Of a stretch of DNA of 64,000 nucleotides, positions 39,456 to 45,592 are shown one piece after another; the stretch's first letter is position 1, and the number at the start of each line of letters is the position of its first letter. This DNA is from an uncultured Ruminococcus sp. (GTDB taxonomy: Bacteria > Bacillota > Clostridia > Oscillospirales > Acutalibacteraceae): assembly GCA_902773635.1 (NCBI GenBank), contig CACYFH010000013.1, positions 16,879 through 80,878 of the forward strand, read 5' to 3'. Made by a program: the position numbers and the translations under genes. The notes under the pieces are model-generated. The model had not been told where the DNA came from and did not search any database. It was given only the letters and a program-made list of their open reading frames with translations.

Positions 39456-40961
39456 ATGCAGACTTCCGTCCTGGAGCGTTTGGACGCTTCTGCCGCCGCA
39501 TATGCGGATAAGGTGATGTTCAAGGATCCCGATAGCAGTCTGACCTTCTCTCAGTTCGACGCGCTGACCCGCCGTATCGGTACGGCGCTGTCCCGCGTCG
39601 CCAATGCCGGCGAGCCTGTCGCCGTGATGTCCGGGCGCCACGTCCTGACTCCCGCCTGCTATCTGGGCGCGGTTCGCGCGGGCTGCTTCTATGCCCCGAT
39701 CGACGGCGATATGCCCAAGGCGCGCCTCAACCAGATCCTCTCCGTCATCCAAGCCCCGACCATGCTGGTCGACCGGGCGCATCTTGAGATGGCGCAGACC
39801 CTTGATTTCGACGGCACGCTTGTCGTGCTGGAGGAGATCATGGATACCCCCGCGGATGAAGCGGTGCTCAGCGCGCGCGCCGCGACCCTGACCTGCACCT
39901 CTCCGCTCTACGTCATCTTCACCTCCGGCTCGACCGGAAAGCCCAAGGGCGTCATCACCTCCCACCTTTCCCTGATGACCTATATCGACAGCGTCTCTAA
40001 GGTGCTCGACATCAACGATACCGATATCATGGGCAACCAAAGCCCGCTCGACTACATCGCCGCCGTGCGCGATATCTACTTCCCGATCAGCAGGGGCGCG
40101 TCCACCTTCATCATCCCGAAGAACGAGTTCGCCGTCCCGACCGCGCTGTTCGGTACCCTCAACCGTGAGAAGATCACCGCGCTGTGCTGGAGCGTTGCGG
40201 GCGTGGAGCTTCCCGCGAAGCTCGGCGCCTTTGACGAAGGCAAGCCGGAATATCTGAAGAAGCTCTGCTTCTCCGGCTCCGTTATGCCCTGCAAATACCT
40301 GAAGATCTGGCAGGAGAACCTGCCCGACGTGCTCTACGTCAACCAGTACGGTCCCACCGAGGCGACTGCCTCCTGCACCTATTATGTGGTGAGGGAGAGG
40401 GTAGAGGACGACACCGTCCTTCCGATCGGCAAGCCGTATGATAACTATAAGATCATGCTGCTCAGCGACGACAACACTCCCACCCCCGACGGCGAGATCG
40501 GCCAGATCTGTGTCAGCGGCCCCATCCTCGCGCTCGGCTACTACGGCAACAAAGAGGTCACGGACGCTTCCTTTATCCAAAATCCGATGAACCCGAACTA
40601 CCGCGAGCTGATCTATAAGACAGGTGACCTCGGTCGCTGGGCTGAGGACGGCAACCTGATGTTCCACGGCAGAATGGACAGACAGATCAAGCACCTCGGC
40701 CACCGCATCGAGCTGGGCGAGATCGAGGAGACCGCCCGCAAGGTCGAGGGCGTGAAGGACTGCTGCGCCCTCTATCATAAGGAGAAGGCGACCCTCTACC
40801 TGTTCTATACGGGAGAGGCGACCTCCAAGGAGATCGTCCTCTACTTCCGCGCGAACATGCCCGCCTTCATGGTTCCCCGCAAGCTCGTGAACCTCGAGGC
40901 TCTGCCCGCTCTTCCCAACGGCAAGACCGATATGCAAACCCTGAAAACCTATTTTAAATAA
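39456..40961 (+). CDS. Amino-acid adenylation enzyme (DltA-like)
   Basis: The 501-residue ANL-superfamily enzyme activates an amino acid as adenylate and loads it on the carrier protein encoded next. Core motifs are visible: IFTSGSTGKPKGVITSH (A3), YGPTEATASCTYYVV (A5), YKTGDLGRW (A7), GRMDRQIKHLGHRIELGEIE (A8) and PALPNGKTDMQ with the catalytic Lys (A10). Overall length and motif set match D-alanine ligase DltA. AAAGGAG (39440-39446) fits the ATG at 39456 better than ATG 39450. Whether the substrate is D-Ala or another amino acid is open, given the PLP enzyme in the operon. Confidence 0.88.
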   Translation: MQTSVLERLDASAAAYADKVMFKDPDSSLTFSQFDALTRRIGTALSRVANAGEPVAVMSGRHVLTPACYLGAVRAGCFYAPIDGDMPKARLNQILSVIQAPTMLVDRAHLEMAQTLDFDGTLVVLEEIMDTPADEAVLSARAATLTCTSPLYVIFTSGSTGKPKGVITSHLSLMTYIDSVSKVLDINDTDIMGNQSPLDYIAAVRDIYFPISRGASTFIIPKNEFAVPTALFGTLNREKITALCWSVAGVELPAKLGAFDEGKPEYLKKLCFSGSVMPCKYLKIWQENLPDVLYVNQYGPTEATASCTYYVVRERVEDDTVLPIGKPYDNYKIMLLSDDNTPTPDGEIGQICVSGPILALGYYGNKEVTDASFIQNPMNPNYRELIYKTGDLGRWAEDGNLMFHGRMDRQIKHLGHRIELGEIEETARKVEGVKDCCALYHKEKATLYLFYTGEATSKEIVLYFRANMPAFMVPRKLVNLEALPALPNGKTDMQTLKTYFK

Positions 40962-40976
40962 ATCTTGTTTACAATG

Positions 40977-41055
40977 TCATTGCGAGGCTCTTTAGAGCCG
41001 TGGCAATCCCACAAAGAGGGACGCTTCGTTTCTTTTTTGTGAAAATGACAAATCA
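40977..41055. repeat. CATTGCGAGG-type repeat inside the dlt-like operon
   Basis: This copy of the family also seen at 13727-13805 (TCATTGCGAGG, CGTGGCAATCCCACAAAGAG) is inserted between the adenylation and carrier-protein genes. Confidence 0.75.
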
Positions 41056-44380: not shown

Positions 44381-44392
44381 AAGGCAAGTATC

Positions 44393-45592
44393 ATGAAAAA
44401 GAAATTATACATTACGCGGACGGTCAAGCTGATCGCGCTCACGCTCCTCGTGTTCCTTTCGGCGATCATCCTGCAGGATTGGGTGCTCAGGCGCGTTGAC
44501 CATAACACGCTCCGCATGGATGCGTTCTATATGGAGAAGAAGGGCACTCTCGACGCGGTGCTCGTCGGCGCGAGCGACGTCTACGCCGGCTACTCCGCGC
44601 CCTATGCGTATGAGAAGTACGGCTACACCAGCTTCCCCTTCGCGACCCAGGCCTCCCCTTCTAATATCGTCCTTCCCCAGATCAAAGAGGTCATCAAGTA
44701 CCAGAACCCCAAGATGATCGTGGTGGAGATCAACGCCTTCCTCTATCCGGACAACAAACAGCCCGCCGAGGTCAACTGCCACCTTTTCGCGGATAATATC
44801 CCGCGCGACCAGATCTGGCGGGACTATATCGAGAAGGAAGTCCCCGAGGATACCCGGATCGAGTACTATATCCCGCTGCTCAAGTTCCACGGAAGCTGGA
44901 ACGAGTACCCCTGGAAGTTGAAATACCTCTCCGCGGATATCAAGCTCAGGAATCGCGGCTACGCGCTCCTGCGCGGCTACAAGACCGTCTCGAAAATGTT
45001 CACGGCAAACGAGAAGATCGCCAACTCCAAGTTTGAGAACGACGATTCCACCAAGCCCCTCGGTCCGATCGGCGAGCGCTGTCTGCGTGAGACGCTGGAG
45101 TATCTCAAGGAGAATGATATCCACAACGTCGTATTCACCCGCTTCCCGCACATCGTGAGACAGCGCGACTATGCCCGCTTCAAGCGCGGCAACCGCGCGG
45201 GCGAGATCATCGAGAGCTACGGCTACGACTTCGTCAACATGGAGCGCTACGCCCTGCGCGACGGCTTCGACCTCGAACACGACTGGTATAACTGGGATCA
45301 CCTGAACATCTTCGGTGCGGAGAAGTGCACGGATTATATCGCCGACCTTCTCCTGAACAAGTACGGCTTGGAGCCCTCCGAGCAGACCGCTCAGCAGAAG
45401 GAGAATTGGCAGAAGTCCGTCGAGTGCTACCACAAGGTGTATAACTATAGTGAGAGCCTGATCGAGCGCGGCGTGTTCGGTACCAAGGATGCGGGGCTGC
45501 GCACGACCGTAGAGGAGGACGACGAGACCCTCCGTCTGATCGACGAGTTCGCCGAGAACTACCCCGACTACGGCAAATACGCTAAAAAGTAG
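44393..45592 (+). CDS. Membrane-anchored SGNH-like protein (DltD/AlgJ-like role)
   Basis: The 399-residue product has one N-terminal membrane helix (about 9-27) and an extracytoplasmic SGNH-like domain. The first block is VLVGASDVYAGYSAPYA, with Ser in the GDS-like position, and the C-terminal block is NWDHLNIFGAEKCTDYIADLL, with the Asp-x-His pair. Such proteins complete the outside half of acyl transfer next to an MBOAT. The stop codon TAG overlaps the GTAG foot of a repeat. This is the last gene of the operon; a terminator follows at 45624-45658. Confidence 0.8.
   Translation: MKKKLYITRTVKLIALTLLVFLSAIILQDWVLRRVDHNTLRMDAFYMEKKGTLDAVLVGASDVYAGYSAPYAYEKYGYTSFPFATQASPSNIVLPQIKEVIKYQNPKMIVVEINAFLYPDNKQPAEVNCHLFADNIPRDQIWRDYIEKEVPEDTRIEYYIPLLKFHGSWNEYPWKLKYLSADIKLRNRGYALLRGYKTVSKMFTANEKIANSKFENDDSTKPLGPIGERCLRETLEYLKENDIHNVVFTRFPHIVRQRDYARFKRGNRAGEIIESYGYDFVNMERYALRDGFDLEHDWYNWDHLNIFGAEKCTDYIADLLLNKYGLEPSEQTAQQKENWQKSVECYHKVYNYSESLIERGVFGTKDAGLRTTVEEDDETLRLIDEFAENYPDYGKYAKK

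Follow-up and report, generated by a model that had tools for sequence, protein, structure and literature searches.

A Dlt-like operon with an embedded PLP decarboxylase may decorate the surface of Clostridia-type gut bacteria with ω-amino acyl groups made on a carrier protein

What does a pyridoxal phosphate (PLP)-dependent decarboxylase do in an operon that otherwise resembles the D-alanylation (Dlt) system? In Gram-positive bacteria, esters of D-alanine set the charge of the surface and the resistance to peptides. In a 64,000-nucleotide stretch of contig CACYFH010000013.1 from an uncultured Ruminococcus sp. (hereafter, the window), whose source genome comprises 1.66 Mb and is 75% complete, five genes on the + strand at 39456-45592 encode an adenylation enzyme (A), a carrier protein (C), a PLP enzyme, a membrane-bound O-acyltransferase (MBOAT), and an SGNH-like protein. 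All of them were found as described in an earlier note on this DNA, including the PLP enzyme between the carrier and the MBOAT. We consider it probable that the operon makes and exports an ω-amino acyl group: A would load an amino acid, the PLP enzyme would decarboxylate it on C, and the MBOAT and SGNH proteins would transfer the product to a surface polymer.

The five genes form one conserved unit. A search of 300 genomes of the family at E ≤ 1e-30 found the PLP enzyme in 25, the window's own genome included, and A lay in the same stretch in all 25. On longer stretches, some of them cut by a contig end, all five genes were found in 21 of the 24 relatives, and the set was complete in 22 of the 25 genomes with the window counted; in the three incomplete relatives (L108, L114, and L116), the contig ends too early for a full set. 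The close relatives are metagenome-assembled genomes (MAGs), with named sources including roe-deer abomasum and goat ileum. Of the public MAG loci, 19 of 22 had the five genes, and the others (L030, L036, and L043) run into a contig edge; the A gene of L039 is spread over two overlapping frames.

Wider searches gave the same association. At the level of the order (E ≤ 1e-20), 72 of 394 genomes matched, 17 with at least 226 bits and 55 with at most 98 bits. A, the PLP enzyme, C, and the MBOAT were present in all ten new strong loci, and the SGNH protein in all eight of the strong loci that were fetched more widely; the 13 weak matches inspected had no partner genes. At the level of the phylum (E ≤ 1e-30), 7 of 398 genomes matched, among them the window's own genome and G312, which had matched before. 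Two others were new cases of the operon type: G684 carried A-PLP-C-MBOAT with no SGNH protein detected by profile, and in G1046 a partial match to the PLP enzyme adjoined A and C, with no MBOAT found. The remaining three matches were weak. No match to A, C, MBOAT, or SGNH was obtained in 43 control loci (30 LysA-type loci and the 13 weak matches from the order), whose stretches were about 4 kb or less. The linkage of A to the PLP enzyme in 25 of 25 genomes and the lack of partners in these controls indicate that the association is not due to chance. The neighborhood search that the earlier note had proposed placed an A gene in one cluster with the PLP gene in all 25 family and all 10 strong order loci, and the PLP enzyme is a true member of the Dlt-like operon, as the note had supposed.

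The gene order is A-C-PLP-MBOAT-SGNH in the clade of the window and A-PLP-C-MBOAT-SGNH in the other clade, and the genes flanking the operon mostly vary from locus to locus. L105, L112, and L118, which come from three genomes of a single genus, have the order A-PLP-MBOAT-SGNH-C-MBOAT-SGNH; the two MBOAT-SGNH pairs per A-PLP-C set suggest two acceptors or two steps.

The PLP-binding Lys47 and the decarboxylase-type Cys323 were invariant in all 26 aligned operon enzymes, and these two residues place the protein among the fold-III PLP decarboxylases, in agreement with the earlier note. A search of the PDB with the single sequence gave BtrK as the best match (103.7 bits; best diaminopimelate decarboxylase (DAPDC), 98.8 bits), and a search with the family profile gave 190 bits for BtrK, 178 for SbnH, and 165 for the best DAPDC. 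The best NCBIfam profile was that of LysA, TIGR01048, with a score of 176.6 bits under its cut-off of 297.9; TIGR03099 scored 160.3 bits (cut-off, 478.45). In all 30 genomes searched with the LysA profile, the best match was another gene, which exceeded the cut-off in 20 of them. The window's own genome has such a separate, better LysA-type gene (G000:C5:27335-28561; 261 bits, also below the cut-off).

According to PMC7857480, DAPDC recognizes diaminopimelate (DAP) through an Arg in its specificity helix, and an acidic residue adjoining the catalytic Cys reads the side-chain amine. We compared 32 operon enzymes (31 with letters at the site, one row being truncated) with 30 LysA-type enzymes from the searched genomes, assigning the DAP-reading Arg by alignment position rather than by the numbering of that paper. 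At this site, all 31 readable operon enzymes had Tyr and all 30 LysA-type enzymes had Arg, and the residue after the catalytic Cys was Thr (27) or Ser (4) versus Glu (30 of 30). At positions 143, 324, 361, and 362, the operon enzymes had Q (32/32), T or S (31/31), F (30/31, with Leu in one), and L (31/31), and the LysA-type enzymes had K, E, Y, and N (30/30 each). Q, T, F, and L were also found at these positions in BtrK and in three other enzymes: L175, which adjoins ATP-grasp and acyl carrier protein genes; L180, a Rhizobium enzyme adjoining an A gene and a carrier; and L181, a Streptomyces enzyme adjoining an A gene, methylaspartate-mutase-type genes, and a polyketide synthase, a gene set that we take to resemble the vicenistatin genes. 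L176, an enzyme in an SbnH-like setting, shares three of the four. Among 14 columns that are uniform (at least 80%) within the operon group and within the LysA group yet different between them, BtrK sided with the operon enzymes in seven, with LysA in one, and with neither in six (position 289 among these).

The enzyme thus shows each feature of a BtrK-like class, namely the nearest solved relative, the Q/T/F/L sites, and a carrier gene in the operon. According to PMC7857480, BtrK acts on BtrI-S-glutamate to yield carrier-bound 4-aminobutyrate (GABA), and BtrK, SbnH (6knk), and FigC decarboxylate conjugated amino acids. Of the roles that the earlier note had offered, action on the carrier-bound residue is the best supported, by the relationship to BtrK, the Q/T/F/L sites, and the linkage; supply of lysine from DAP was not borne out, with Tyr in place of Arg and Thr or Ser in place of Glu in 31 of 31 enzymes and a separate LysA-like gene in the genome. 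An identity as LysA was rejected on the profile scores, the replaced DAP-reading residues, and that separate gene. A racemase role of the PLP enzyme itself was unsupported, since Cys323 is invariant and the alanine racemase profile gave 22.3 bits against a cut-off of 24.1; no search was aimed at racemase genes elsewhere. At L177:7708-10163, a further decarboxylase of this type (TIGR03099, 363 bits, below the cut-off) was observed beside a DUF364 protein and an 82-residue unmatched protein of carrier size.

The adenylation enzyme scored 315.9 bits with TIGR01733 (cut-off, 317.4) and 237.3 bits with the DltA profile TIGR01734, far below the cut-off of 559.85; the A of L122 reached 316 bits with the latter. 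As far as the profile tells, A is therefore not a standard D-Ala-specific enzyme, which the earlier note had named, together with a PLP enzyme confined to general DAP/lysine synthesis, as speaking against its proposal, and the DltA cut-off was reached in none of the 30 genomes searched. The PDB alignments of A among the matches listed were all to LgrA.

Pocket positions, given in GrsA numbering and mapped by alignment, divided the operon A enzymes into two types: Ile235/Arg239/Gln301, found in the window and its clade, and Asp235/Lys239/Leu301 (Val301 in one). At position 239, Arg or Lys was present in 25/25 family genomes, 21/21 readable public loci (L036 is without A and hence outside this count), and 10/10 order loci, and the A enzymes of G684 and G1046 have the Lys motif. 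The A of a PLP-free A-C-MBOAT-DltD-like operon, L124, has Ser235/Thr239; its genome, G073, also holds the five-gene operon. Nonribosomal peptide synthetase (NRPS) modules of six operon genomes had Met, Phe, His, Gln, or, in one recurrent module type, Lys at 239, in a comparison that omits two low-scoring rows (73–74 bits, Gly at 239). Arg at 239 is also known from domains that activate a side-chain carboxyl. The ACV synthetase adenylates the side-chain carboxyl of aminoadipate, as stated in PMC7147772, and an aminoadipate code published in PMC12283262 has Arg239. The basic residue of the operon enzymes could hold the second carboxylate of the substrate. Elsewhere in the pocket, Ser273 precedes the G of the FxG motif, and at least 90% of the 21 aligned rows share it; it may be the counterpart of DltA Cys269. 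Cys269 (B. cereus numbering) is described as part of the D-Ala pocket of DltA in PMC4176424.

The carrier protein exceeded the cut-off of the PP-binding profile (21.2 versus 20.8 bits) and stayed under those of the DltC profiles NF003464 (35 versus 68 bits) and TIGR01688 (21.3 versus 52.35 bits), and its phosphopantetheine site, Ser31, was invariant (30/30). The MBOAT belongs to the superfamily by its PF03062 score (68.5 bits; cut-off, 27) and conserved His, with His312 and His375 invariant (32/32); it scored 139.9 bits with the DltB profile TIGR04091, below the cut-off of 375, which was reached in none of the 30 genomes searched. The SGNH protein had no Pfam (including DltD PF04914) or NCBIfam match at E 0.01. 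Its Ser61 and His303 were invariant (29/29), the first PDB match of its predicted fold was DltD 6pfx, a weak one (Foldseek E 1.2e-3, TM 0.35), and the model has an N-terminal helix at residues 2–31. Given the conserved His, Ser, and His residues of the MBOAT and SGNH proteins, this helix, and the weak DltD match, the ω-amino acyl group most likely ends as an ester outside the cell.

Once decarboxylated, an ordinary amino acid is left without a carboxyl for loading; a decarboxylase in a loading operon therefore points to a dicarboxylic amino acid. We infer the substrate, the order of the steps, the product, and the surface acceptor as follows. A would activate a dicarboxylic amino acid, most probably L-Asp or L-Glu, at its side-chain (distal) carboxyl and load it onto C, and the PLP enzyme would strip the free α-carboxyl while the residue sits on the carrier. 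The MBOAT would carry the ω-amino acyl group across the membrane and, together with the SGNH protein, link it to a hydroxyl group on a polymer of the cell surface, just as D-Ala is handled by DltB and DltD. The surface may then be decorated with something other than D-Ala, as the earlier note had proposed. Precedents are described in PMC11284099: VinN takes 3-methyl-Asp and not its decarboxylated product, VinO works after loading on VinL, that is, on the carrier-bound form, and FlvN of the fluvirucin B2 pathway takes Asp, the starter there being β-Ala. Applied to the operon, the logic of VinN/VinO and BtrK would give β-alanyl-C or 4-aminobutyryl-C.

Several observations weigh against this reading. 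A fold search with the PLP enzyme model placed the DAPDC 1twi first and BtrK second, with no separation between them. In the tree, the operon enzymes formed one clade (100/100) and LysA another (100/99); the deeper joins were weak (81/70) and do not tell whether BtrK or LysA is the nearer relative. As evidence for the substrate, position 239 is suggestive only. One recurrent NRPS module type in the operon genomes carries Lys239, and the VinN-like Streptomyces A of L181 has Tyr there. The clade of the window is without Asp235, the usual anchor of the α-amine. In the codes given in PMC12283262, a near-identical Arg239 code also serves Asn, the Asp/Asn code has Thr239, and the Glu/Gln code has Gln239. 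Among the best 60 of the 79 PDB matches of A, none was a chain named VinN. An operon of G003 with a Lys239-type A has a GNAT acetyltransferase gene (L123:1528-2367) between A and C, the usual place of the PLP gene; the contig starts at A, and the single LysA-profile match in the whole genome is a LysA-like gene elsewhere. The GNAT protein perhaps provides a different tailoring of the loaded residue. Finally, the teichoic acid polymerase profile PF04464 had no match over its cut-off in 9 of the 25 operon genomes, so that in some of these bacteria the acceptor may be something other than teichoic acid.

This last finding is also what favors a variant in which the carrier-bound ω-amino acid is made as proposed and the MBOAT and SGNH proteins load a lipid or a secreted molecule instead of a wall polymer. 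We regard the variant as unlikely, given that the DltB-like MBOAT and the anchored SGNH protein, whose catalytic residues are conserved, look like pairs known to acylate the cell surface. Somewhat more doubtful still is a route to the same end product in which the PLP enzyme makes a free ω-amino acid (β-Ala from Asp or GABA from Glu) that A then activates. Such an activity has a parallel in IdnL3 of incednine, which decarboxylates free β-glutamate according to PMC11284099. However, position 239 is basic in every operon A enzyme that could be read, and such a residue would have no obvious use once the second carboxylate is gone; BtrK and SbnH, the closest relatives of solved structure, work on conjugates according to PMC7857480; and no strong PLP match was found away from an A gene among the 25 family and 10 order loci.

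That the operon is a D-alanylation system with the PLP enzyme as an accessory or passenger appears quite improbable. The overall DltA/DltC/MBOAT/SGNH layout fits it, and the DltA, DltC, and DltB profiles do match, although below their cut-offs; yet the linkage of the PLP gene survives permuted gene orders, and the DltA profile, whose cut-off is 560 bits, gives A only 237 bits in the window and 316 in L122. An ordinary D-alanylation operon was rejected on these low Dlt scores, on the DltA and DltB cut-offs being reached in 0 of 30 genomes, and on a pocket unlike that of L124, which comes from a genome with both operon types. Least probable is a DAPDC giving lysine for general metabolism or lysyl decoration: LysA is the best NCBIfam profile and 1twi the first fold match, but the score misses the LysA cut-off, the residues assigned to DAP reading are replaced, and a better LysA match exists in every genome searched.

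Carrier-bound decarboxylation coupled to surface transfer, the reading that we prefer, combines parts with known relatives. Like the Dlt system (DltA, DltC, DltB, and DltD), the operon has a stand-alone A, a carrier, an MBOAT, and an anchored SGNH protein; unlike it, the operon has a fifth gene for a PLP decarboxylase, and A, C, and the MBOAT stay under the curated Dlt cut-offs. The pocket residues of A also set it apart from the PLP-free dlt-like operon L124. Like VinN-VinL-VinO of vicenistatin, described in PMC11284099, it pairs an A and a stand-alone carrier with a PLP decarboxylase, which in vicenistatin acts after the loading of a dicarboxylic amino acid and would do so here. In that system, however, the output goes to a polyketide synthase and here to an MBOAT/SGNH pair, and the pocket motif of the window A differs from that of the VinN-like L181. 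The butirosin system BtrJ-BtrI-BtrK contains the nearest solved relative of the PLP enzyme, a decarboxylase of carrier-bound glutamate; its loading is done by BtrJ, an ATP-grasp ligase, and we know of no MBOAT in it. The profiles of the exosortase-A-associated ligase and decarboxylase, TIGR03098 and TIGR03099, also match (172 and 160 bits), far below their cut-offs of 592 and 478; to our knowledge, these proteins have no known function. Among the matches listed from the open-licence literature, judged by title and start of abstract, we found no description of such an operon, in which three proteins for decarboxylation on a carrier would supply a Dlt-like export pair, or of GABA or β-Ala teichoic esters.

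More tentatively, and with slightly less than even confidence, we propose a second Dlt-type branch of surface acylation, patchy and recurrent in Clostridia-type gut bacteria, in which ω-amino acids (β-alanine or GABA, perhaps one per A-pocket clade) are made on the carrier by decarboxylation and put on envelope polymers; GABA, a molecule that signals to the host, could then sit as an ester on the surfaces of commensals. If our proposal is true, the Dlt transfer module accepts cargo other than D-Ala, the starter-unit chemistry of antibiotics is linked to the cell envelope, and gut bacteria gain a surface chemistry of which no report was found among the listed matches in that literature. The features of the operon are collected in Table 1.

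Table 1. Genes of the Dlt-like operon in the window
Feature	Position	Strand	Length and profile scores
A: stand-alone amino acid adenylation enzyme, DltA/NRPS-like	39456..40961	+	501 aa; TIGR01733 315.9 bits, TIGR01734 237.3 bits
C: stand-alone carrier protein, DltC/ACP-like; phosphopantetheine Ser31	41077..41304	+	75 aa; PP-binding 21.2 bits
Fold-III PLP decarboxylase (Lys47, Cys323); BtrK is the nearest solved protein by sequence	41511..42698	+	395 aa
MBOAT acyltransferase, DltB-like; invariant His312 and His375	42728..44380	+	550 aa; PF03062 68.5 bits
Membrane-anchored SGNH protein in the place of DltD; N-terminal helix 2-31, Ser61, His303	44393..45592	+	399 aa

Nine loci of the Asp235/Lys239 type (L100, L106, L107, L109, L110, L111, L114, L116, and L120) have a gene that clusters with histidine kinases upstream of A, and a gene of response-regulator size is also present in seven of them; only the pair of L109 and the kinase of L111 were read by eye. 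In L110, a small open reading frame (ORF) lies between the histidine-kinase-like gene and A. These genes suggest stress control of the operon.

Directly downstream of the operon in the window, at 45965-52042, is a cell-wall and division cluster of MraZ-, RsmH-, FtsL-, PBP-, and MraY-like ORFs, identified by eye. In L031 and L034, too, the operon is followed by ORFs that, in a comparison by size only, roughly match these, and no comparable row was seen in L050 or L099-L122. Between the C and PLP genes, at 41311-41400, lies a dispersed repeat with arms that appear inverted by eye. Partial copies of it were found at 30498-30550 (100% over 53 bases), 13887-13945 (90%), 11651-11668, 11798-11819, and 52101-52123. 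Upstream of the operon, at 36888-38201, the window encodes a CobW-type GTPase, recognized by eye, with a long His/Asp-rich stretch, which is probably involved in metal handling.

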